Source of the DNA: Branchiostoma floridae
Taxonomy: Eukaryota; Chordata; Leptocardii; Amphioxiformes; Branchiostomatidae
Assembly: GCF_000003815.2 (NCBI RefSeq)
Contig: NC_049986.1
Coordinates: 10,053,292 to 10,117,291, forward strand
Length of the DNA stretch: 64,000 nt
Direction: 5' to 3'
The stretch's first letter is position 1; every line of letters starts with the position of its first letter. The notes below the pieces were generated by a model that had not been told where the DNA came from, did not search any database, and saw only the letters and a list, made by a program, of their open reading frames with translations. Below, piece by piece: positions 2,495 to 19,015 of this stretch. Position numbers and translations under genes: made by a program.

Positions 2495-3051
2495 GAGGCC
2501 ATTTTCAGGCTCTTTTGCTGGTGTCAAGCCTGCTGAAAACTCACAAAGTTTGTCCTTGGAACGGTTTTGTAATCAAGTCAAAGCTCACGGACAGGACGAT
2601 TGAAGTAGATTTTATTTGGTGATGTTTATCTTTCTAACTATATTGGAGATGTGTGAAGCAGCTTGGTCTGACATAGGTGTGAAACCTTCCTGATCCTTGC
2701 GACAATGTGCAATGATTCATGCCTTTGGAACTTTTTCTGTACCCTCTACACTGTCTGACCGTCTGGAAAAAAATGTTCACTTTGCATTGAGAGCATTTTA
2801 AAGAATCTTGAGACTTATCAAAATGATCTCAAGATTCTCATGAAAAATCTCAAGATTAACTCAATACATCTCAAGATTTACCACAAAATTTCAAGACTTT
2901 TGGAAGAAATCTCAAGATTTTTCGATTTTCAACGAGGCTCTAAGACCCCCGCTGGGGTCCATAAGATCCGTTGAGTATCAGAGAAGTTTTTCACAAAATA
3001 TCAGCAGTGTAAGTTTAAGCTGTAAGAGGCTACAAGCATTTGTCCAAAGTG
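2495..3051 (+). repeat. left arm of large inverted repeat, outer part
   Basis: This stretch is the reverse complement, with moderate divergence, of 18420-19015, and again of the second copy near 23480-24090. It contains a run of about 25-bp steps built on TCTCAAGATT (2800-2930) that is also present in the other arms. The arm is interrupted at 3051/3052 by the retrotransposon and resumes at 14220. Confidence 0.85.
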
Positions 3052-3222
3052 CTATTCTAATTGGGTCATGTGGACGTCCCCGAGCTGATTGCGCATTCGT
3101 TAAGAATCGGAATTAGGTTGGGGACAGTCCACGTGACCTTTAGACACAGGTGCACATCCTCACCTGTTGATAGAGTATTTATTGCATAGGGAAAACGTGT
3201 GTTTAACCATTTTGGAGGAGAG
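3052..3222 (+). repeat. split direct repeat A1
   Basis: 171 bp, identical to A2 at 13798-13968. It starts with the core CTATTCT and contains an imperfect hairpin (3066-3081 pairing with 3120-3136) around GTGGAC-GTCCCC. It also holds a TATA-like box and probably the promoter. Confidence 0.93.
3176..3182 (+). promoter_or_regulatory. TATA-like box in repeat A1
   Basis: TATTTAT lies about 75 bp upstream of the first in-frame ATG (3255) of the leader exon. Placement inside a terminal repeat suits a retrotransposon promoter. No transcription start can be seen; the assignment is inference. Confidence 0.4.
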
Positions 3223-3254
3223 CAGCCTGAGTGCGTGTCGTGTAGCAGCGCGTG

Positions 3255-3665
3255 ATGATACGGCCACGTTTACCTCAGCAGGCTCCCGCGGCGCCGGCAC
3301 GTCAGCCGGCGGCCGCGGGGGCTGGGGCTGGGCAGCTTCCAGGAGCAGGCCTTGCTCCGCAGGCACCGGTAGGAGTACAGCAGGCCGCGGTGCCGGGTTT
3401 GGTTCCAGCCCCGGCAGCTTTGCAGCCAGGCGGTGGGGTACAGCAGGCCGGTGCCGGTCCCTTTCAGCAGCCCCCGGCAGTTCAGCCAGCAGGAGGAGTG
3501 GCTCAGCAGGCCGCGGCAGGCCTAGGAGGTGCTGCCCAGCAGGCCGCCGCGGTACAGCAGCCGGTTGGTGGGGTTCAGCAGCCTGCGCTAATCCCCGGGG
3601 GTGTGGGTCAGCAGGCCGCCGCTGGGCTGCAGCCCGGTCAGCAAGGGGTGCCTGGAGTCCAGGAG
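3255..3665 (+). CDS. leader exon of the retrotransposon (Gln/Pro/Ala/Gly-rich)
   Basis: 137 codons starting at ATG 3255, ending in VQE immediately before a donor GAG|GTGAG. The predicted peptide is low in complexity, with repeated GGVQQ and QQAAAGL motifs. It is much more GC-rich than the sequence after the donor. The exon ends in phase 0. It therefore joins in frame to the Gag body at 5684, and equally well to the RT body at 9650 or the recombinase body at 12128. Another open frame covers the same DNA from 3167, but it leaves the donor in phase 1 and fits no acceptor. The role of the leader is unknown; a structural N-terminal region of Gag is plausible. An alternative view is that it belongs to Gag only. 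Confidence 0.75.
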
Positions 3666-3784
3666 GTGAGATTTCTTTCTTGGATTGTTTTCAGGTTTTT
3701 GTAGAGCTTTGTTGTTCTTGTATTGTTTGTTTCTGGTTCATGGTGGCTAACCATTTGTAACTGTTTTATTTTTCTACGCAGTAT

Positions 3785-4600
3785 GTTCGTTAGTGCAGGT
3801 TTTTGGTTTATGTGGAGGTTTCCCATTATTTGCAATGATGTTTTGTTTTTTGTAGTGGTTAACTACTAGTATGTAATGTTTCGTTTGTATGTAGGTTGTC
3901 AACTAGCAAAGTTTATTCGTTTGTGTGGAGGGTATCCATTTTGGTTTGTGGTTTTTGTTTTGCGGTGGCTAACCGCAAGTAATTGTTTTTATCGTTCCGT
4001 GGACGTTAGTTTTCCAATAGTAAAGTTTCTTCTTTTATGTGGAGGATATCCACGAGTTTCTCTTTTGTGGTGGTTAACTACTGGTAATTGCTTTGGTTTT
4101 ATGTGGAGGTTTTCCACTAGTATTCCTTTTGTGGTGGTTAACCACTAGTAATTCTTTTCGTTTCCGTGGACGTTATTTACTAGTAAAGTTTCTTCTTCTA
4201 TGTGGAGGATATCCAGTAATATTCCTTTTGTGGTGGTTAACCACTAGTAATTCTTTTCGTTTCCGTGGACGTTATTTACTAGTAAAGTTTCTTCTTCTAT
4301 GTGGAGGATATCCAGTAATATTTCTTTTGTGGTGGCTAACCACTAGTAATTGATTTTTTGTTTCCTGGGTGTTTTCCACTAGTAAAGTTTCGTCTTTTAT
4401 GTGGAGGTTTTCAACTAGTATTTGTTTCGTGGTGGCTAGCCACTAATAGTTTTTCAGTTCTGTGGTCGTTATCCGTTAGTAATATTTTTAAGTGGTGGTT
4501 AACTACTAGTAGTTGTTTTATTATTTAGTGGAGATTTTCCGCTAGTAAATTTTTAGTAGTTTTATGGGGGTTATCCATTGGTTATGTTTTATAGTTATGC
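3785..4600 (+). repeat. array of short palindromes with 99-bp tandem units
   Basis: Two almost identical 99-bp units (4131-4229 and 4230-4328) lie inside a longer degenerate array. The array alternates palindromic words such as GTGGTTAACCACTAGTAA and TGGAGGATATCCA. Each word can fold on itself. Other copies of the words occur from about 3800 to 4600 with irregular spacing. Confidence 0.85.
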
Positions 4601-4687
4601 AGAGGGTATCTGCATTACAGGTTTTCATCTGGCGTCTTTTAAAATTTCTGACATCCATGTGGTGGATAATTGACTTTAGCAGTTTTG

Positions 4688-4862
4688 TTTGCGTGTGGTT
4701 TACAGCTGTTCGCTAGAATTCAATATGGCGCAGGTGGCGCATAATTTGTTACCCCTGGCGGATAATTAATTTTATCAGTTTTGTTTTTGTATGGTTTACA
4801 GCTGTTCGCTGGAATTCAATATGGCGCAGGTGGCGCATAATTTGTCTCCCCTGGCGACCATG
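4688..4862 (+). repeat. twofold tandem repeat
   Basis: Two consecutive copies of a unit of about 105 bp, each containing GGTTTACAGCTGTTCGCT followed by ATGGCGCAGGTGGCGCATAA. It is noncoding and lies inside the first intron of the element. Confidence 0.8.
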
Positions 4863-5683
4863 TGCTGATTGATTCCTTTTAACGGTGGTTTTGGCGTGTG
4901 CTACATTTGTGCGTGTTTTATCTAACTTGGTTTGATTTTAGTTGGAAAGCAGGTAATGTTAAAACTGATTTTATGAAGGATTTTGTTGTTTTTGATGGAT
5001 TTCGTTGGTGTGCAAGTGTTTATATGGAGGGTATTTATTTGTATTTGAAGTGTTTATTTGGAAAGGCTACTGTGTTTTAGTATACTATGCGGTATGAAGT
5101 ATCCAATTGTAGGAATTCAGTGTTGATTTGTAATTACCATTTTTATAGTGGTGGTGTTTATATGTAGTATTTGTTTTTTCTTGTTGCTGTGTGGATATTT
5201 TTCTGTTTTGCATGGACTGCTGTTTGTGTTTTTTCCGTTTGTATGACTTTAGTTTTGTTTGGTTGTTTTCATGTTTTGTAGTGTGTTTTATAGGAGTAAG
5301 GTTTTTTATTCTTTGTTTCATATTGGGAAAGTTCGACGACGGGCACCGGGGTTTCCTATTATTACCCTTCTACTTCGGTAGGCCCACCAACCGGGGGTTG
5401 GTGCTCGTCCTAGGGCTGACCCTGAGTTTTTAGAAGTGTAATTGTGTTTTCTGTGTCTACTTTGTTGTTAGTTTGTTTTTGGTTGTGTAATTCGCTTTGT
5501 TATCTCTTTGTATTATCTTTTTTTTACCCTGTTGGGGAGTGGTGTATTTTAATTGGGGTTTTTGTTCTTTACACTTCTCAGGGTCCGCCTTGGGGCGAGT
5601 GTTTTAAGTTTGGAAATGTGACGACAGTATTTTTTAATAAGAGTTGATGTTGATTGTTGTTTCCTTTTTTATGTGTTTTTTAG

Positions 5684-6511
5684 ACGGTTCGGCAATTAAG
5701 AGAGGAGCTGGATAGAATGGCTGCAGTACGGGCTCTTGAGAGGGTAGATGAGGCCAAGCTGCTAGTCTTGGAGGAGGCGAGGACGCCTCCACCACTCTTC
5801 TCGGCAGCAAAGGTTTTAGCGGCCTTAAACTCATTGGAAGAGAGAGCGAAGGTGGTTAATCACGTTAATCTTCCAACATTCACAGCTACAGTCAACGAAG
5901 CCAGAGTGTTTTATTTCCACCCCGCATTAGGTAAAATGGTTCAGCGTGCTTTAGGCCCGCGAGAAGACGAGGCTGTGGCAAAGAAGTTTAACGCGGTGGC
6001 TTCTGCTTCTAATTCTCAGTCGTTTGCTCAGCTTCAACCTCCTGTGGCCCCTCAGCTTCAACCTCCTGTGGCCCCTCAGCTTCAGCCTCCTGTCGTCTCT
6101 CAGTTTCAACATCCGGGGGTCTCTCAGTTCCAGACTCCTGCGGTCCCTCAGTTTCAACATCCGGGGGTTCCTCAGTTCCAGTCTCCTGCGGTCCCGCAGT
6201 TTCATCATCCGGGGGTTCCTCAGTTCCAGTCTCCTGCGGTCCCTCAGTTTCAACCTTCCGGGGTCCCTCAGTTTCAACCTCCTGTGTTTCCACAGTTTCA
6301 ACCTCCTGCGTTCCCTCACTTTCAACCTCCGGCGCCCACTGCTCCGTTTTTGGCGGGAGGTTCTTCGGGTGATTGGGAGGGTAGGTGTTTCTTGTGTGGG
6401 GGCGAGGGACACTATAAGAGTAGGTGCCCTTCTAATAAAGGTGTTAGAGCCCCGGCTCAACGTCCCTCTCCTTGGGGTCGGGGGAGGGGAAGGGGTTTTG
6501 GACCACGTTGA
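5684..6511 (+). CDS. Gag-like protein body with zinc knuckle
   Basis: 275 codons after the acceptor at 5683, ending in TGA at 6509-6511. With the 137-residue leader the protein would be about 412 residues. The N-terminal third (from TVRQLREELDR) is charged and probably helical. The middle is a run of about a dozen repeats of the type P-x-F-Q-P/H-P-x-V. Near the C-terminus is one CX2CX4HX4C zinc knuckle (C-FL-C-GGEG-H-YKSR-C), followed by a basic, Gly/Arg-rich tail. Zinc knuckles of this type bind nucleic acid in Gag proteins. An internal ATG exists at 5717, but the frame is open back to the acceptor. Products probably package the element RNA; that is inference from the family. Confidence 0.82.
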   Translation, partial: TVRQLREELDRMAAVRALERVDEAKLLVLEEARTPPPLFSAAKVLAALNSLEERAKVVNHVNLPTFTATVNEARVFYFHPALGKMVQRALGPREDEAVAKKFNAVASASNSQSFAQLQPPVAPQLQPPVAPQLQPPVVSQFQHPGVSQFQTPAVPQFQHPGVPQFQSPAVPQFHHPGVPQFQSPAVPQFQPSGVPQFQPPVFPQFQPPAFPHFQPPAPTAPFLAGGSSGDWEGRCFLCGGEGHYKSRCPSNKGVRAPAQRPSPWGRGRGRGFGPR

Positions 6512-9500
6512 TGTGCGAACCCTGCCGTATTGCGTATAACGCTGGTTGCTCTCCGTTATTAGTGTTTGGAACTTTTCTGTTATTGTGTCATTAATTTATT
6601 TTTCTATGATGTTTGCATTGTATACCCTTTATTTTCCATAAGAACTCTTGTTATTTTGCCTTTGTTGGTAATTGTTTCTGCTGTTTTCTCCTATTTTAGA
6701 CATTTCTGTGTTAACATTGTAAACTTTGCTGTTCCGTAAGATCTTTTTGCTCAGTGAGGTTTAACCATTAGCACTCTCCTGTTCTTTTAACAGGCATCTT
6801 TTTGAGCTATGATGTTAACAGTATGAACTCCGTTGTTGTAAACTTGAACGTTTCACATTTATTGGTTTTTGTTTTCTGCTGTTGTAAGACCTCTTGATGT
6901 TCCGAATGGTCAACAACTTTAACGATGTTTTTTTGACAGAAAAGTTTGAATATTCAATGATGTTAGTAAGCGTGAACTCCCCTATTGCAACAATATTCGA
7001 CTTCCTTTGTATTATTAATTTTTTAGGTTCTGCTAGTTTGTAAGGGAGTGAGAGATTTGCAATGATGTTGATGAGTTTGAGTTCTGCTGTTTTTGCAAGA
7101 GAACTGTATAAGATTTGCAATGTTAGCAGTTTTTGGTATTCCTGTTTTGTATCAGAAATGTTCGTTTTCTACAATGTTATTAACTTGATGTTTGCTGTTT
7201 TGTATGAAATTCCGAGATGCCATGATGTTAGTCCATGCTGTGTTGTGTACGATTATCTCTAGGTGTTTTATGTAATGAAATTGCAGAAGTTATTTTGTTT
7301 TGTGAGTATGTCAGTATGTAACATGACTTGATTAGTGCTTGTTTTTCTAAGATCATGTTCTATCCATGGATGTGTTTTGTTTGTTGGAGAATTGAAGAAT
7401 TTTGTGAGAGGTTTTTTTTGTGGACATTGCATATTTATTTTGATTCTGGTATAGTTTGTTTTATTTTTGTTTTCTTCTTTTGTTCTCAATTTTTTGTTTT
7501 TTCTTTTGATGTAAATTTTGGTTAAAATAGTCTTGATTTCTTGTTTTATTTTTGGTATTCTTTGATAGTTATATATTTTGACTTTTGGTTATGATGGACT
7601 GGCTATGGATAACGACTTTTGAACCTATGTTTATATAGGATTTGTTGTTTTTTCTTTATTTTCTGAATAAACTCTTTTCCTGTTGGATTTGCTTGTGCTT
7701 TTCGTTGTTTGTTCTTCTCCTGGAAGAAAAAGTTTTTCCTGTAACATAGTAGATAGTAGTTTGTACAAGAAAGAGTTAAGTTTTAAAAAAATAAAAAAAG
7801 TTAAACATCTCTGTTAAAAAATACTTTAGTTCTGTTACTTTATTATTAGTAATTTAGCAGTAAGTAATTTAGCAGATAATCGTTTTTGATTTTTCAAGGA
7901 AACGAGTGTGTGTAGTTGTAATTCGTAATAGGTAATGACTCAAGGGTGTACTAGTGTGAGAGAGCTAGTTTATTCATTTTAAAACAAAAACAAAAAATCA
8001 CAGTCATGTACAAGTTTGTAGTCCTAAGACTAATTTGCCTCATACTAGGTACACAAGGGTTTATAATGTGAGGCCTTGCCTAAGTACGTCAATCAATTTT
8101 TTAATAGTCACTTTATTCCCGCTTAGCTATACATTTTTAAAGTGTGGAGTTACGCACACATATATTTTTATTTTACATTAGTAATAGTTTTATTTCAATC
8201 TAAAACAGAACTAGTGAGGAAGTTATAAAAGTGCCATCTAAAGTTTAATATGAATTTAAAAGGTCGATACAGTATGGTGGCGTAGTGTTTCTTAAAACGA
8301 GCCGTTCTACATTTTAAACTTAGTGAAGTTGTTAGTTTATCTTAGGTTTCCTGCTATGCGCCTCGCGTGGTGGTAGCCAGTTGAAGACCTCAGAATTAAC
8401 AAGTGATCTAGCAAACTTCAGGCAGTGAGCATTTCGTCTTACATGCAGTTGTTCTTTCTAGAGTTAGTTATGTGTAGTTTACACGTACACATAGGGTTGT
8501 TTTTAAGGTGAATTTGTACTTAAGTATTTTTAAAGGCAGGTAGAACATACATAGCCTTTGTAGTTGGAGGTTACAGAGTGGGTGTGACAAGGAGGTGAGG
8601 CAGTTAGAAGTGGTCTGTCCCTTCTTGAACACTCCTTCCTCCAGGAAGAATTTGGACTGTCCCCGTTTTTAACAGTCCTGTCTGCAATGGGCAATGGACT
8701 GTCCCCATCTGAATGTGGACTCTGCAGCAAGTAGAAATGGTCTAGCTCCTCGTGTATAACGCCTCCTTTGGCAGGTTTTAAGTACTTGACGTATATGTAT
8801 ACACGAGGTGCGAGGGTCGTTCGGCTAAACAAAGTTTGGTGCATGTAATAAAGCTTGCCGCCTGGTTATTTTACTGCATGCATAAGTTTTTGGATATGAC
8901 CGTCAGGATTGGCATTTTGTTACATTCCTCTGTTAATTTTTTGCATAGTGTTCATATTTAATGATAATCTTTTTGTTAACATTTATATTTGGCGGAAGGT
9001 TTTTATTGGAAGTTTTCTTTTGTTTATTTTATAACATTGAGCTCCTTCAGGGATGCATTTTTTCAGCAATTTTGCTATTTGTTTATTCTTGTGACGTTTT
9101 TAGATTCAGAGTTAATACTCTTCTTTGTTTTTATGTGTTGATAGCTTTTAAGTTTTTGATTGAGCGTTGTATTTCATCATTTTGGCGCAATTTGACAACC
9201 TATTTAACTTAAGTGCACTTTAGTTTTGCCCCTTTATGTAGTTTTGAATTGAGTAGGTGAGATAAACTCGTAGCTTGTGAGTATGTGATAGAATTGTATT
9301 GAATAAGTATAATGTTATACTCACAGATGTCTTTGGAAACAAGACCGGCCATTTGTCACTGATTGTGTCATTAAAATTCAGTATGGCGCCCCATGGTTTT
9401 TGAATGTTCAGGGGGATTGGGTAGTCCTTGCATAGGAGGGTGGTTGGTTTCTCTCATTTTATGTGGGTTGGTTTCTGCTATGTTTTTAGGTTAAGGTGAA

Positions 9501-9649
9501 ACTGGTTGTCCGGCCTTTATTTGTTCTTTTCTGTTTGTTTTTTAGCTATTTTTGGTGTTTGTGTCAGGTGTTTTCTTATCTGTGTTATGTTGTGTTTTGG
9601 GAAGGCAATCATTTTTTGGTTCTGATTGCATGTTTTTTGTTCTTTTCAG
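6512..9649 (+). other. intron-like region between Gag and RT frames
   Basis: 3.1 kb, T-rich, with no domain-bearing frame. It ends in a pyrimidine run and TTTTCAG at 9649, directly before the RT frame. It contains degenerate repeats around 6820-7260 (GATGTT...TGAACTC words), a polyadenylation-type hexamer at 7666, and two copies of TGGACTGTCCCC (8653 and 8695) complementary to repeat A. Read from the leader donor at 3665, it would be part of one long intron. Confidence 0.6.
7666..7671 (+). terminator. candidate polyadenylation hexamer for a Gag mRNA
   Basis: AATAAA, 1.15 kb after the Gag stop codon. It could end a Gag-only transcript upstream of the RT frame. The hexamer is short and the region AT-rich, so chance occurrence is likely. 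Confidence 0.3.
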
Positions 9650-11872
9650 TTTTCTGACAGGAAACAGGCATGTCGGGAATGGCATTTCCCGGCATGGGAA
9701 AAGGGGATTTCCTTCGACCCATCTGAGGCATTGTTAGAGGCTGATCGAAGGGAATTACGATATGTGGATATGCATGGACGGCCTTGGAACCCTCCCATGT
9801 CACCGCCTCCGAGTGTTCAGGAAGTTTCTTTGGGATTGAAGCATGCCAACGCGTCGTTGGTGAAATTCCCGGACCCTGACTTCTTTCTGGCAGGACAGCT
9901 TCAACGACATGTAGACGAGTGGGAGTTAATTTTGCAAGATCATGAGAGTAAAGACGTGTTGTTGGAGTGGATTAGAGATGGAGTGGATGTGGATAAATTC
10001 ATTGAGCCTTTTAAGGGTTTTTTCCAGGGAAGGAGGGTTGACGCTGACTATCCTATTAGGCAAGTTTTTCAGAATAGTCCTTCTTGTTTGCCGTTTGCTG
10101 ATTTCATTTCTGATACATTGGTAGAACGTATCAAAACGGGAGCAGTTTCTGTATGGGGGAAGGTCGGCGAGGTTGATCCTCCTTTCCTGGTAATGCCTTT
10201 AACTGTGGAGCCTACAAAGCCCAGACTTTGTTGTGACCAGAGATATCTGAACATGTTTACTAAAGACTGTCCATTTACGTTGGACAAATTAGTGGATGTT
10301 ACCAGGTATGTTGAGAAGGATACATTCCAGACTAAGGTGGATGATAAATCGGGTTATGACCATGTCACTATCCACCCTAATTCTCGGACACTTATGGGTT
10401 TCCAGTGGGCAGGATGGTATCTTGTTTGTAACACGTTGGCCTTTGGGTGGAAGGCTTCAAGCTTTATATATAGTACTATTGGTCTGGCTGCGTCAGGTTA
10501 TATCCGATCATTAGGGGTCCCTCTGACCCAATATATAGATGACAGGCAGGCAGGCCAGTTGCAGCGGCCTAGTGTGTTGCCTTTGACTTTAGAAGACAAC
10601 TTCAAGCGAGCGGAGGCAGCTGTGTTTATTATGACTACTATTCTAGTTAGATTGGGCTATATTTTGGGTTTGGGAAAATCGGTGCTGGTGCCTACCCAGT
10701 GTTTGACGTTTCTTGGCTTTATCATTAATTCAATATTATGTGCGTTTGGTATCCCTCGTCATAAGAAGGACAGTTTTAAGGCTTTACGGCAATCCATCCT
10801 CGCTCAGACTCATGTTAACATGAAGACAATGCAGAGGTTTGTGGGTAAGGTGGTATCTTTCACGTTGGCTGTTCCTGGGGCTTTACTCTTCACAAGAGAA
10901 TGTAATCTAGCGTTATCAAGGGCTGCTAAGAGTGGAGAGAGGATTCACATAGTGGGGGATTTGAGGAAGGAAATCCAGCGTTGGGAGTGTGTGGATAATT
11001 GGAAAGATGATTGGAAGTGGAGGGAAGAGAAACACATTGTTGTCTCGGTGGCCTCTGATGCATCTCAGGCGAAATGGGGTGGAGTAATAGGTGTGGACAG
11101 TCATGATGCCTTAGAGGTCGGTGATTTGTGGCTTCCTTGCGAAGCATCCTTGGGGATTGCTTCCAAAGAGGCTTTGGCGCTGTATCGTGTTCTCCAAGTC
11201 TTGGGTGCGAAAATGTTGAATGCCAGGGTAGATGCATTCGTAGACAGTAAGGTGGTTGTAGACACGTGGCAGGCGCAAGGGAGGAAGTCCAAGCATATTT
11301 TTGATGTCATGAAAGATATCTTTGCTCTCACTTGTGTTCACAACTCTTCTTTGAAGTTGCATTTTGTAAGATCGGAATATAACCCTGCAGATGCCCCCTC
11401 TAGACGTTTTTCTCCTCTTGAGGTGAAACTTTCTCCGTCAGCGTGGTGTACCGTTCAGCAGGAATTTGGACCGCATAACATAGATTGTATGGCTCTCCCT
11501 TCTAATACCCAAGTGGGTGTGTTTTTCTCGAGGTTTCCGGCTCCAGGTGCGGAAGGGGTAAATTTCTTTGCACAGCCTTTGGGCCCAGGTCAGAGATTTC
11601 ATGATCAAAGAGGTTATGTTTTTCCTCCCCCGTGTTTGATTGGTTCAGTATTGAATTTTGTTAAGGAGTGTAGTTTTTCCTGCACCTTGGTGGTCCCGGC
11701 CTATGTCCCAGCCAAGTTTTGGCTGCCTGTCTTAAAAAGGTTGTCTTCGAGGTCTGTTCGACTGGGGAGAAAAGGAGAAGTGGGCATTCTCTTACATCCT
11801 GGGCCGCGTGGTTACCAAGCGAGGAAACCTCTACCGTGGGATCTGTGGGCGTTTAGTGTGGATTTCTATTAG
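9650..11872 (+). CDS. reverse transcriptase-RNase H protein of the retrotransposon
   Basis: 740 codons after an acceptor at 9649, stop TAG at 11870-11872; about 877 residues if joined to the leader. The frame is closed by TGA at 9623-9625, and no in-frame ATG occurs for the first 40 or so residues, so splicing is needed to supply a start. Domains: an N-terminal region of about 150 residues; reverse transcriptase at about residues 170-370, with KVDDKSGYDHV and the catalytic YIDD at 10532-10543; RNase H from ASDASQAKWGG (Asp at 11056-11058) through SKEALAL and FVDSK to NPADAPSR; and a C-terminal region of about 140 residues (HNIDCMA ... FPPPCLIGSVL) resembling the extension found in other DIRS-order polyproteins. 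That last part may derive from an adenine methyltransferase-like domain; this is uncertain. It makes element cDNA. Confidence 0.92.
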   Translation, partial: FSDRKQACREWHFPAWEKGISFDPSEALLEADRRELRYVDMHGRPWNPPMSPPPSVQEVSLGLKHANASLVKFPDPDFFLAGQLQRHVDEWELILQDHESKDVLLEWIRDGVDVDKFIEPFKGFFQGRRVDADYPIRQVFQNSPSCLPFADFISDTLVERIKTGAVSVWGKVGEVDPPFLVMPLTVEPTKPRLCCDQRYLNMFTKDCPFTLDKLVDVTRYVEKDTFQTKVDDKSGYDHVTIHPNSRTLMGFQWAGWYLVCNTLAFGWKASSFIYSTIGLAASGYIRSLGVPLTQYIDDRQAGQLQRPSVLPLTLEDNFKRAEAAVFIMTTILVRLGYILGLGKSVLVPTQCLTFLGFIINSILCAFGIPRHKKDSFKALRQSILAQTHVNMKTMQRFVGKVVSFTLAVPGALLFTRECNLALSRAAKSGERIHIVGDLRKEIQRWECVDNWKDDWKWREEKHIVVSVASDASQAKWGGVIGVDSHDALEVGDLWLPCEASLGIASKEALALYRVLQVLGAKMLNARVDAFVDSKVVVDTWQAQGRKSKHIFDVMKDIFALTCVHNSSLKLHFVRSEYNPADAPSRRFSPLEVKLSPSAWCTVQQEFGPHNIDCMALPSNTQVGVFFSRFPAPGAEGVNFFAQPLGPGQRFHDQRGYVFPPPCLIGSVLNFVKECSFSCTLVVPAYVPAKFWLPVLKRLSSRSVRLGRKGEVGILLHPGPRGYQARKPLPWDLWAFSVDFY

Positions 11873-12127
11873 GTATTCAGTGTCTGGATGTTTTATGGAG
11901 GCTACAAGGATTGCTGGTTTTCTCTGTATGCATAAGAGGGAATTTTTGGTTTTTCTCTGATTGGTTAATTTTTCGCTTACAATGAAAATTAGGGAATTTA
12001 TAAATAGAGATTTTCTTAGGCTTTTTTGTTCTTTTTGTTGAACTGTTTTTCTCTTGTTTTGAGTGTTTATGTCTTCTTTTGTTTTTTATCTTTTTTATAG
12101 TTTTTGCCCTTTTGTGGTTTGTTACAG
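11873..12127 (+). other. short T-rich intron-like spacer before the recombinase frame
   Basis: 255 bp between the RT stop and the acceptor GTTACAG (ending 12127). It is rich in T with a clear pyrimidine tract. The recombinase frame is closed by TAG at 12098-12100, so the body opens only at the acceptor. Confidence 0.6.
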
Positions 12128-13426
12128 CCATTACCGCCTGTCGCTAGAATTTGGACCCCGGCAGTTGCATGTCCGGTATGCCGTCAACCCAACGATGAAG
12201 ACTTCAGCTACTGTCAGAGATGTGGTTATGCAAGGGAGACAGAGGTCCCTGCCGATGTTAATTCGTTGCCCAACGTGGACTGGGGGGCTATTGAGGCGCG
12301 TAAACATTTGGTCTTCTCTCAGTGTGCCGGGTCGGCGTACGGACGGCAGAAATCCCGTTTGCAGTTGGAGTTAGTGAATTTTTTGGCTGCGGCTCCCATC
12401 CCTCGCAATATTTTTTCGGCTACTCCAGATGATGTGGTGCGGTTTTTGATTTGGAAGGACGGTGCGGGGAAAACGATTTTACATAGCCATAATTGTTTTG
12501 CTCCTGACCTTAATTCTAAGTGTTCCTGTTCGCGGCGACTTGCAGCGGGAACTGTGGATTCAATGATTGGAAAGTTGAGGGCAATCTTTGATGCTTCGGG
12601 CAGAGTGGGTAGTTGGGATCCTAGGTTGGGTGTGGGGAACCCGGCTAGTGACAAGTTGGTTGCAGGTTATAAAAAGGTGGTGATGGAGGAGCAGGCGAAA
12701 TTGGGTATAACACCTAGTCAGGCGACTCCGGTGTTTGTTGATAAGTTGACAGTGATAGTTGGATTTATTGATGATCTTTTGAAGGCACCTTCCATCTCGG
12801 CTATTAAAATGTATATTTTGTTGAGAGATCAAGCCTTTTTGAAGCTTTTGTTCTTCACTGGGAAGCGTGCTAATGATTTGTCTTTGGTCGTGGCTCGTAA
12901 TGTGTTAAGATTTGCACTGGATGAATATATCATCTTTAAGCAAACGTTTGGGAAGACTTTGAGAGGGGGGCAGGCCAACTTTTTCGGTGTAAAGAAGTGT
13001 CTGAATGAGAAAGTTTGTCCGGTGGTTGGCCTAGTCAGGTATTTAGACACGTGTGCGCAAATGGGAATAGATTTGACTACGGGGTACTTGTTCAGAGCAT
13101 CTTCGGGATATTCCGTTTCTCCAGATCTTTTCTCAGCCTCGGCGGCGAGTAGCCGTTTTAAGTATTATCTTAAGAATTTGGGTCAGGATGAGGGGGAGAC
13201 CATTCATGGTTTTAGGGCGGGGGCAGCTATCACGCTCGCAATGTCTGGGGTTGAGATAGAAGCTATAATGTCGCATGTAGGCTGGGATTGTGTAGCTACA
13301 GCAGAACACTATTTGCAGATGGGCAACATCCTGAGGTCCTCTAGTCCGGCCTCGTTGTTGGCGAAGGCGGCTGGGGAAGGGTCGGCAGCGTTTGTGGCTC
13401 AGCGAATGAGAAGCCTGAAGAAGTAA
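12128..13426 (+). CDS. tyrosine recombinase of the retrotransposon, with zinc ribbon
   Basis: 432 codons after an acceptor, stop TAA at 13424-13426; about 569 residues if joined to the leader. An N-terminal zinc-ribbon-like motif (CPVC ... CQRC, near 12168-12235) is followed by a SAM-like helical core and the catalytic domain. Seen catalytic residues: Arg in FTGKRANDLS, the HxxR pair in IHGFRAGA, a His in SHVGWD, and the nucleophilic Tyr in AEHYLQ. The first in-frame ATG lies well inside the protein, beyond the zinc ribbon, so translation from this DNA alone would lose the N-terminus. The family integrates circular cDNA by site-specific recombination without target duplication, which matches the junctions of this copy. 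Confidence 0.92.
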   Translation, partial: PLPPVARIWTPAVACPVCRQPNDEDFSYCQRCGYARETEVPADVNSLPNVDWGAIEARKHLVFSQCAGSAYGRQKSRLQLELVNFLAAAPIPRNIFSATPDDVVRFLIWKDGAGKTILHSHNCFAPDLNSKCSCSRRLAAGTVDSMIGKLRAIFDASGRVGSWDPRLGVGNPASDKLVAGYKKVVMEEQAKLGITPSQATPVFVDKLTVIVGFIDDLLKAPSISAIKMYILLRDQAFLKLLFFTGKRANDLSLVVARNVLRFALDEYIIFKQTFGKTLRGGQANFFGVKKCLNEKVCPVVGLVRYLDTCAQMGIDLTTGYLFRASSGYSVSPDLFSASAASSRFKYYLKNLGQDEGETIHGFRAGAAITLAMSGVEIEAIMSHVGWDCVATAEHYLQMGNILRSSSPASLLAKAAGEGSAAFVAQRMRSLKK

Positions 13427-13731
13427 GGGGGACCTATTGCTGGATACTGGGTCCTTTTTGTAAGGATAGAATGTTTTCAGATATGAAGATGTTTTTCATG
13501 TAAGATACTGGCGTGTTATGTTAAAGAACATTAAGGAAAGAATAATAAGAAGAAATAAACTAGAAGAGAAGAGTTTTTTGTGTTTGTGTGTTATTTGAGT
13601 GATATGGTGTATGTGACTTAGAAAGGGTTTGGAGAGAGGTTTGGGTTTGAGGTTTGGGGGATGATTGAGGATGGGGTTATCATGGGGGTATGGGGAAGAC
13701 CGCGATAAGTTCATGATAGGGGAGTGGCGGA
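13427..13731 (+). other. 3' noncoding region of the retrotransposon
   Basis: Follows the recombinase stop. It contains AATAAA at 13554-13559, a plausible polyadenylation signal about 130 bp downstream of the stop, then a G-rich stretch leading into B1. No gene is seen. Confidence 0.5.
13554..13559 (+). terminator. polyadenylation signal downstream of recombinase
   Basis: AATAAA in the context AGAAATAAACTAG, 128 bp after the recombinase stop codon. If used, the RNA would end before B1-A2-B2. A full-length template RNA would have to read through it. Confidence 0.45.
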
Positions 13732-13804
13732 GGACTTTTTTGCCCATACCTTACCCCTTTTTCCGGAGTTGCCCTGGGGATCAGGTAGGATATAGTACTA
13801 TTCT
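13732..13804 (+). repeat. split direct repeat B1
   Basis: 73 bp, identical to B2 at 14147-14219. Its last seven bases (CTATTCT) are also the first seven of A2. This B-A junction is what a circular intermediate would carry at its joining site. Confidence 0.93.
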
Positions 13805-13968
13805 AATTGGGTCATGTGGACGTCCCCGAGCTGATTGCGCATTCGTTAAGAATCGGAATTAGGTTGGGGACAGTCCACGTGACCTTTAGACACAGGTGCA
13901 CATCCTCACCTGTTGATAGAGTATTTATTGCATAGGGAAAACGTGTGTTTAACCATTTTGGAGGAGAG
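13798..13968 (+). repeat. split direct repeat A2
   Basis: 171 bp, identical to A1 at 3052-3222, and overlapping B1 by the CTATTCT core. The sequence after it (13969-14146) is G/T-rich with runs such as GTGTTGTGGGGTGGG. Confidence 0.93.
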
Positions 13969-14146
13969 GTGCCTGAGTTCGGGAAGAGTGAAGCAAGCGT
14001 GTGTTGTGGTGTGTTGTGGGGTGGGTTGTGTATCTGGTGGGGTGGTAGGGATCTGATTGAATTTTAGTTTTTGGATGTCCCACCCTCCCCCCCGGTTTCT
14101 TATGTTTTTATGAGGTTCCGCTCTTTGACTCTCTGGGGTTTGCTCC

Positions 14147-14219
14147 GGACTTTTTTGCCCATACCTTACCCCTTTTTCCGGAGTTGCCCTGGGGATCAGG
14201 TAGGATATAGTACTATTCT
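14147..14219 (+). repeat. split direct repeat B2
   Basis: 73 bp, identical to B1. It ends in CTATTCT directly at the junction with host sequence CAGTCCAATAATAATC. This is the right boundary of the element. Confidence 0.93.
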
Positions 14220-15032
14220 CAGTCCAATAATAATCTGCTCGCTGTTAGTAATATTCTACAAATGGTTATTTCTAACCAAAAATTATTGTACAGCGATTCA
14301 TACCGTATAATACTAACTGATTATGAGTTTTTGTCGATAAAGACCAAGGTTGTACTATAAAATCACCCAAGGAATTCGGCTAACGGCCCTCAGTCTGGTC
14401 CCAACCACCATGGTGTTCACATCAGTGGAGACAGGCTAATACTGATTAGCAATTGTTAGAGTTACTCTTCAAAACAGTTTTGAAATACACATAAGCCTGT
14501 AGTCTTGAACAGATAAGGAATTGAAGTATGACTTCACACAATTCAGCATAGCTTCACAAGTCAGCTTACAAACATTATAAAGCATAGCTGGCCATGGTCT
14601 GCCTGGAAGTGTGTCTCAGAAAATATGACCTAGATGCAACTTCCAGAAAGTATTGCTCTGTTAAACGGTTGTCAATGTGGGCACAGGACCTTCTAATAAC
14701 ATTGTTAATTTTCCTTTTTTTAATCGTAGAGAATCAAACATTTTCTTGTTATCACCTTTTGAATATGTGTGATTTTCATCAACTAGCAACATTTTGTTGA
14801 CAACAGATAGTTACACTAGAAGTTACGTGACTCTAATGGCCAACACATGGGTGTCACATGCCTTAATAAGGTTGAGATGCCAAATTTGGAGACTTTTGAT
14901 ACCCATTATGGGCAGGGAGAACAAAATATAATTTTGGTGTGATACAAAACAAAAAATCCAAAAATGAATCATTTGAAGAAGTGCATGCCAATAGTGTTGA
15001 ACAAATTACATAATGTGGGCATATGTCATAGA
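14220..15032 (+). repeat. left arm of large inverted repeat, inner part
   Basis: 14220-14330 and 14640-15032 are the reverse complement of parts of 17812-18430, for example CTCGCTGTTAGTAATATTCT and GCATGCCAATAGTGTTGA. The segment 14340-14630 has no counterpart in the right arm. Open frames here are shared with the other arms only because the DNA is duplicated. Confidence 0.85.
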
Positions 15033-17811: not shown

Positions 17812-19015
17812 TGTCTATGACATATGCCCACATGATGTAATTTATTCAATACTATTGGCATGCACTTCTTCAAATGATTCATTTTTGGATTTTTTGTTTT
17901 GTATCACACCAAAATTATATTTTGTTCTCCCTGCCCATAAAGGGTATCAAAAGTCTCCAAATTTGGCATCTCAACATTATTAAGGCATGTGATACCCATG
18001 TGTTGGCCATTAGAGTCACGTAACTTCTAGTGTAACTATCTGTTGTCAACAAAATGTTGCTAGTTGATGAAAATCACACATATTCAAAAGGTGATAACAA
18101 GAAAATGTTTGATTCTCTACGATTAAAAAAAGGAAAATTAACAATGTTATTAGAAGGTCCTGTGCCCACATTGACAACCGTTTAACAGAGCAATACTTTC
18201 TGGAAGTCTTGTGTGAGCAGTCTATATAAAGTGACAAGGCATAACTTTGGGGCAAAAACGTACTTTTCTGAAAATTACAAGCATTAAAGGCAATTGACAA
18301 ATAACTCATAATCAGTTAGTATGAATCGCTGTACAATAATTTTTGGTTAGAAATAACCATTTTTAGAATATTACTAACAGCGAGCAGATTATTATTGGAC
18401 TGAGCATAGCACTTTGGACAAATGCTTGTAGCCTCTTACAGCTTAAACTTACATTGCTGATATTTTGTGAAAAAAACTTCTCTGATACTTATCGGATCAT
18501 ATGGACCCCATTGAAAATCGAAAAATCTTGAGATTTCTTCCAAAAGTCTTGAGATTTTGTGGTAAATCTTGAGATGTGTTGAGTCAATCTTGATATTTTT
18601 CATGAGAATCTTGAGATCATTTGATAAGTCTCAACTTGAAGATTCTTGAAAATGCTCTCAATGCAAAGTGAACATTTTTTTCCAGACGGTCAGACAGTGT
18701 AGAACGTACAAAAAAAGTTCCAAAGGCATGACTCATTGTCATAGGGACAAAAGGTCTTGGGCGGTACCTTATACATGCACATTGTCGCAAGGATCAGGAA
18801 GGTTACACGTCGGACGTGCCCAATGACACATGTATGTCAGACTAAGCCGCTTTACACATCTCCGATATAATAAGAAAGAAAAACATCACAAAATAAAATC
18901 TACTTCAATCGTCCTGTCCGTGAGCTTTGACTTGATTACAAAACCGTTCCAAGGACAAATTTTGTGAGTTTTCAGCAGGGTTTTGACACCAGCAAAAGAG
19001 CCTGAAAAGGTCTCA
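17812..19015 (-). repeat. right arm of large inverted repeat (copy 1)
   Basis: Reverse complement of the left arm (2495-3051 and 14220-15032). At 18391-18411 it keeps the unoccupied version of the retrotransposon target (reverse strand: AAAGTGCTATGCTCAGTCC). Another right arm is at about 22890-24095 in the second duplication copy. Confidence 0.85.

Follow-up and report, generated by a model that had tools for sequence, protein, structure and literature searches.

How can a reverse transcriptase and a recombinase be produced from reading frames that stay without an in-frame ATG from the preceding stop up to the conserved core? This question is raised by an 11.2-kb tyrosine-recombinase retrotransposon located in a 64,000-nucleotide (nt) stretch of the Branchiostoma floridae genome (contig NC_049986.1, positions 10,053,292 to 10,117,291; this entire stretch is the window, and positions below are counted from its first letter). 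The element (3048-14219) encodes a leader open reading frame, a Gag protein with a zinc knuckle, a reverse transcriptase (RT)-RNase H, and a recombinase with a zinc ribbon and an ALOG domain. An earlier note on this locus proposed that the leader is spliced in turn to each of the three bodies, and this appears to be the best reading, supported by the conservation of the sites and their phases, by the leader donors of related copies and by the coding signal at the exon starts. We consider it probable that a single leader donor is spliced alternatively to Gag, RT-RNase H and recombinase, with the unspliced RNA serving as the template.

The leader and the three bodies

The predicted exons, the donor and the competing acceptors are as follows.

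3255-3665, forward strand: leader exon, coding part, 137 codons of open frame, a low-complexity stretch rich in P, Q, A and G
3666-3671, forward strand: phase-0 donor GAG/GTGAGA (GAG exonic, GT at 3666); locus L031 has GAG/GTAGGC at the corresponding place
5684-6511, forward strand: Gag exon with a CCHC zinc knuckle, acceptor AG at 5682-5683; zf-CCHC match with E 0.0012, just below the curated cut-off
9650-11872, forward strand: RT-RNase H exon, acceptor AG at 9648-9649; RVT_1 (7.2e-5) and RVT_3 (0.019) matches, both below the curated cut-offs
9659-9660, forward strand: competing AG, phase 1, 11 nt inside RT (exon start 9661), score 8.6 vs 7.9 for 9650
12099-12100, forward strand: competing AG, phase 0, 27 nt upstream of the recombinase acceptor (exon start 12101), score 8.6 vs 5.7
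12128-13426, forward strand: tyrosine recombinase exon with zinc ribbon, ALOG and integrase domains, acceptor AG at 12126-12127; ALOG match with E 8.7e-21

All the sites named in the earlier note, that is, the leader ATG at 3255, the phase-0 donor at 3665/3666 and the phase-0 acceptors at 5683, 9649 and 12127, are present. The leader frame is closed by a stop at 3702-3704, and the donor context GAG/GTGAGA spans 3663-3671. When splice sites were scored with a generic splice matrix, this donor ranked third among the 991 GTs of the element (10306 and 8595 score above it), and the acceptors at 5684, 9650 and 12128 ranked 7th, 6th and 15th, respectively, among its 722 AGs. The Gag frame is open from 5684 onwards, the preceding TAG being stop and acceptor at once; those of RT and recombinase are open from 9626 and 12101, respectively, and their acceptors precede 9650 and 12128. 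The lack of an early in-frame ATG in RT and recombinase, to which the earlier note had pointed, holds in the window copy, where neither frame contains one from the upstream stop to the conserved core and the first methionine of the recombinase after the acceptor is residue 146, past the zinc ribbon. The only well-placed start codon for these two bodies in the window copy is that of the leader. Judged from the frames, in most copies RT and the recombinase have a strong need for the leader. That of Gag, which has the acceptor nearest to the leader but could start on its own ATG, is weak.

In the mechanism that we propose, a single primary RNA would start near A1, the left split direct repeat of the element. 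Left unspliced, with its introns, this RNA would be the template for new copies; genomic copies do keep the introns. Alternatively, the donor at 3665/3666 would be joined to one of 5683/5684, 9649/9650 and 12127/12128, giving rise to Gag, RT-RNase H or recombinase. The leader would then form an N-terminus common to all three proteins that might gather them into one particle, the role played by the Gag-Pol fusion in retroviruses.

Conservation of the predicted splice sites among relatives

The genome searched comprises 513 Mb in 431 contigs, and the RT search yielded at least 61 matches (60 of 298 candidates scored). Ten other copies were analysed with their flanks, and further copies were read at the loci of RT matches; three near-identical copies (L033, L035 and L037; hereinafter, the trio) were considered one family. 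The other copies (35-63% identity in the RT protein) keep the pattern. When the 240 nt leading up to each conserved core are scanned, the top-scoring AG is in phase 0 in 28 of the 30 tests by copy and, with the trio collapsed to one family, in 22 of 24 (binomial p = 4e-9 against 1/3, which, given the shared ancestry of the copies, is not a strict probability).

For the recombinase, a phase-0 AG is present at the start in all 15 copies (11 in the main scan, together with L012, L013, L015 and L016) and is the top-scoring one in 11/11 of the former and 4/4 of the latter; L018 yields no recombinase match within its locus. In 12 of the 15, exactly 39 nt separate a phase-0 AG from the zinc ribbon downstream, and the CxxC...CxxC pattern was seen in each of the 11 recombinase starts inspected. 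In the window copy, the AG at this distance is second to that of 12101. In six other copies the first methionine of the recombinase is residue 31, which falls within the zinc ribbon; in others it is residue 59, 83 or 96. For RT, the start is preceded by a phase-0 AG in 15 of 18 copies (the window copy, L031, L033, L035, L037, L039, L041, L043, L045, L047, L049, L012, L015, L016 and L018), with one copy contrary and two, L014 and L019, unreadable at this place; in L039, L041 and L043 this AG is weak. This count was made outside L020, in which the boundary is deleted, and the decayed group L021-L030, the three read members of which (L021, L022 and L028) have an AG in the corresponding position. 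The best-scoring AG ahead of RT is in phase 0 in 9/11 copies, and the distance from the acceptor to the core is 63 nt in the window copy and L031 and 48 nt in L043, L045, L047 and L049. For Gag, the top AG is in phase 0 in 8/8 copies scanned, a set from which L039, L041 and L045 fall out; in the window copy and L049, stops intervene between this AG and Gag, and the second-ranking AG is the likely site.

Given that neighbouring AGs outscore those at 9650 and 12128, the matrix alone cannot fix the exact acceptors; the conserved position favours 9650 and 12128 over the higher-scoring 9661 and 12101.

Leader frames at or just after A1 were found in the window copy, the trio, L031, L043, L047 and L049, and in six leader families the leader terminates in a phase-0 donor. 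The respective donors include GAG/GTAGGC in L031, GAG/GTAAAA in the second leader exon of L033, CAG/GTATCT in L043, GAG/GTTAGT in L047 and GAG/GTTGGT in L049; the phase-0 donor is the top-scoring one in the window copy, L031, L033 (exon 2), L043 and L047, and the second in L049. The leaders of L047 and L049 are homologous proteins (41% identity over 168 amino acids (aa), E 3e-21), with 72/63/103 differences at codon positions 1/2/3. In a Pfam search, neither the window leader nor that of L047 had a match, and the leader of L049 matched only CHASE3, at E 0.24. The translation of L045 at the corresponding donor place reads ME/VGS.

The exon starts look coding. From the first codon past the acceptors, differences are in excess at the third position both in the recombinase (36/21/57 between the window copy and L032) and in RT (22/15/29 between the window copy and L031), whereas in short upstream controls this excess is weaker or absent (17/14/18, 15/18/24, 7/10/11 and 54/45/54). 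Comparison of the trio points in the same direction: the exon pieces contain no indels (an apparent one of 8 nt is the locus end), and the introns contain indels of 1-31 nt. Substitutions amount to 0.3-0.7% in Gag and RT.

The earlier note had named the comparison with relatives as the place where its proposal might fail. The acceptor places and phases turned out to be kept in distant copies, and phase-0 leader donors in six families; the expectation gave way at L013/L017, where the RT site is in phase 1, at the body-start ATGs of some copies, and at the recombinase of L040, L042 and L044, where the distance is shifted. The acceptors could also occur by chance, the bodies being translated, with no splicing at all, by internal or non-AUG initiation. 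The conservation of the place, phase and distance of the AGs and the onset of the coding signal at the acceptor argue against this possibility, although Gag and some RT and recombinase copies do have in-frame ATGs by the body start. On this evidence, initiation at the bodies themselves is highly improbable.

Points against a shared leader and other routes of expression

Several observations weigh against splicing of a common leader to all three bodies. With respect to start codons, Gag has an early in-frame ATG (5717 in the window copy), so that it could start without the leader, and several other copies also have ATGs near the start of the Gag body; in-frame ATGs occur near the RT start in L043 and L045 and upstream of the recombinase acceptor in the trio family, and in L042 the first methionine of the recombinase is residue 2. 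With respect to the acceptors, L013/L017 combines the phase-1 AG at RT, either a small indel or a true exception, with a phase-0 recombinase acceptor; in L040, L042 and L044 the recombinase phase is kept and the distance to the zinc ribbon is not; and in six further copies, scanned over a somewhat different stretch, the top AG at RT is in phase 0 in only two (L016 and L018). With respect to the leader itself, that of L031 has one in-frame stop, that of L045 is broken by approximately 1 kb, and none was found in L039 and L041, where leaders were looked for. The leader of the trio consists of two exons, and the exon 1 donor of L033, CAG/GTAGTG, is the third-best. Among the trio, substitutions amount to 0-2.8% in the leader exons vs 0.3-1.4% in introns, i.e., the leader is not slower.

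Furthermore, when three junction queries (leader-Gag, leader-RT and leader-recombinase) were compared to the genome, no spliced copy was found, and each half of each query matched only the exon of the window copy itself. The family of the window copy has few close copies, so a spliced genomic copy is hardly to be expected. Several candidates for spliced copies were examined and rejected. L021, L022 and L028 keep unspliced sequence before the AG at RT residue 1; the RT-recombinase joint of L014 looks like a deletion with ends off the splice sites; and L020, the nearest kin of the window copy (84-92% DNA identity in four main blocks), is devoid of the Gag-RT interval, and here too the ends lie off the splice sites. 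An 1845-aa frame in C156 that resembled an intronless relative proved to be a gap artefact, its upstream part reading N.

The leader is tied to RT and recombinase by phase only; this link is made because the phases match and no other convincing conserved donor is apparent. One could thus propose that the acceptors are real, with the leader serving Gag only or no body at all, and that RT and recombinase use either donors within Gag and RT, producing fusions, or a private short exon. Two valine columns of RT, which likewise speak against a common leader, have a phase-0 GT in 8/8 copies (score of at least 0 in five) and are possible donors; L043 (score 6.3), L047 and L049 also carry a phase-0 GT within Gag, 24-39 nt from its start. 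However, these RT candidates are weak in score and lie inside the enzyme, and in six copies the final 400 nt of Gag contain no phase-0 GT scoring 1 or more. The Gag-RT interval is without similarity in two pairs that do conserve the exons: blastn and tblastx of the intervals, window vs L031/L032 and L047 vs L049, found none at E 0.01. For the recombinase, the acceptor is 49-560 nt past the first RT-frame stop, the upper figure coming from L032, in which the RT frame is broken earlier; in five copies the distance is 49-91 nt, and in L044 the acceptor is 61 nt inside RT. Such short gaps leave little room for a private first exon. We regard donors other than that of the leader as an unlikely source of RT and recombinase, albeit one that deserves consideration.

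Acceptors without a local ATG would also fit trans-splicing of a host leader, or splicing from upstream host exons. The phase-matched and conserved cis donor speaks against this scenario, and leader trans-splicing is not known from cephalochordates; we give it hardly any credence. Alternative cis-splicing of the leader of the element remains the reading that we prefer.

The element, its class and its known counterparts

The boundaries of the element and its other features are as follows.

3048-14219, forward strand: whole element, from the start of A1 to the end of B2, delimited by split direct repeats, junctions and the empty site
3048-3235, forward strand: A1, left split direct repeat, 188 nt, 98% identity to A2
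3740-4560, forward strand: palindromic repeat array in the first intron, from a repeat scan (e.g., GTGGTGGTTAACCAC)
13732-13804, forward strand: B1 split direct repeat, 73 nt, 100% identity to B2
13794-13981, forward strand: A2 split direct repeat, 98% identity to A1
14147-14219, forward strand: B2, right end, 100% identity to B1
18371-18445, reverse strand: empty target site in the opposite arm of a larger inverted repeat, from comparison of the arms

The split direct repeats are arranged in the order A1...B1A2B2, which is found in the window copy and 7 of the 10 other copies; in L039/L040 the B pair alone was found, and in L041/L042 and L045/L046 the repeat picture is masked by other repeats. 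Because A1 and A2 are 98% and B1 and B2 100% identical, the insertion is probably recent. The element is nested in one arm of a larger inverted repeat (2502-3058, 14209-14303 and 18319-19008) with arms 86-100% complementary, the other arm of which keeps the empty site. Compared to this site, the insertion of the window copy has a short common core, CTAT, and no target duplication, the outcome that integration by a tyrosine recombinase should leave. The end of B1 and the start of A2 form inverted arms with a short spacer and an ACTAT core (13780-13815 in the window) that resemble a recombinase binding site; by eye, these arms are clearest in the L047/L048 and L049/L050 junctions.

Placed by its domains and repeat layout, the element belongs to a known class, the ALOG-DIRS retroposons, with a PAT-like repeat layout. 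The recombinase combines a zinc ribbon (models at 3e-4 to 0.007, below the curated cut-offs) with an ALOG domain matched above the cut-off, and its Phage_integrase match (6.2e-6) is just below the cut-off; an NCBIfam search gave one weak XerA match. Upstream lie RT-RNase H and the zinc-knuckle Gag, for which the profile matches in the window are all below the cut-off, the zf-CCHC matches of the Gag of L047 and L049 being above it. The Gag of the window copy also contains a 24-nt tandem repeat (6027-6334, 12.8 copies) that encodes a PQF-rich stretch. The RT proteins share a conserved C-terminal block (alignment of 8 copies) that may be akin to the inactive adenine methylase of DIRS elements (PMC3537659); searches did not confirm this, with no methylase match in Pfam and, in PDB, a diiron monooxygenase at E 0.89 as the sole match. 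The distinction from Ngaro, which is marked by the lack of a methylase domain, hinges on this same block.

The first intron array might also be functional: folding of 3740-4520 beats all 20 shuffles (z = -4.3), and the array is possibly a regulator of splicing or export. In L045, approximately 1 kb (5225-6248) rich in CAGCACTGG-like repeats splits the leader, and may be either an insertion or an additional intron. The L021-L030 loci match RT residues 1-288 with a near-identical pattern of stops, and comparison of two of them showed kinship with L031; perhaps, this group is a non-autonomous derivative.

Branchiostoma is among the hosts listed for the ALOG-DIRS retroposons in the available part of the original report, in which these elements likewise encode a Gag bearing a zinc knuckle, RT-RNase H, and a recombinase that carries both the ALOG domain and a zinc ribbon (Iyer and Aravind, 2012; PMC3537659). 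There, the metazoan copies were inferred to be inactive owing to stop codons, whereas in the window element all four coding exons are open. The main texts of this paper and of a DIRS1 overview contain no word starting with intron or splic. Pat1, from the echinoderm form of the PAT-like elements that are treated together with Ngaro, has a zinc-finger Gag, as is the case here; the source, as far as available, contains no intron word and two splic words, the one seen referring to transposable elements in general, and describes no leader splicing (PMC4157794). The Ngaro-like element near amphioxus VCBP2/5 is similar in its description, being a three-ORF recombinase element with split direct repeats, and the accessible portion of that report describes no leader or splicing (PMC2632668).

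Counterparts of the proposed expression are found in other orders. According to the portions available, all spliced RNAs of human immunodeficiency virus 1 (HIV-1) use one major donor, D1, and foamy virus Pol comes from a spliced RNA; the likeness consists in one 5' donor, several messages and an unspliced RNA that is the genome (PMC9143442). Retroviral Gag, in contrast, is made from unspliced RNA, whereas here Gag too would be spliced, and the three bodies would share coded N-terminal residues. The Cer1 element of Caenorhabditis elegans makes CERV from a spliced RNA, beside the unspliced genomic RNA and with the splice consensus kept in relatives, but differs in being a long terminal repeat element in which one accessory protein is assembled from five exons, as far as the accessible text goes (PMC10309623). 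The proposed design would work like retroviral and Cer1 splicing, but outside the orders to which those elements belong, and its reach seems to include Gag and a leader that is itself coding. No description of one leader being spliced to all three bodies turned up in the literature searched, which ended short of the principal subscription articles about DIRS, Ngaro and kangaroo; in particular, no such design appears in the available parts of PMC3537659, PMC3266345, PMC4495291, PMC2632668, PMC4157794, PMC9143442, PMC10309623 and PMC5633606. Provisionally, we consider the class of the element known and its proposed mode of expression new.

From a single transcript, retroelements have to produce Gag in large amounts and their enzymes in smaller ones, and they usually achieve this by frameshifts, readthrough and proteases. 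If the proposed splicing takes place, it would be another route to the ratio of Gag to enzyme, set by the strength of the splice sites, and the common N-terminus would be free to drive co-assembly. Gene models of the class would change as well, given that a stop located between two exons may be misread as a sign of decay. It is a tentative and rather doubtful extension that splicing from a common leader is standard for the whole class of retrotransposons, with the common N-terminus packaging the three proteins together instead of a Gag-Pol fusion. A ready-made acceptor before Gag fits the inference of Abascal et al., in the available part of their paper, that a DIRS Gag carried its splice acceptor along on becoming an exon of LAP2alpha (PMC4495291). 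Were such splicing class-wide, it would explain why metazoan copies have been taken for broken and how parts of DIRS elements were captured as host exons, namely, LAP2alpha from a DIRS Gag and perhaps the plant ALOG domain.

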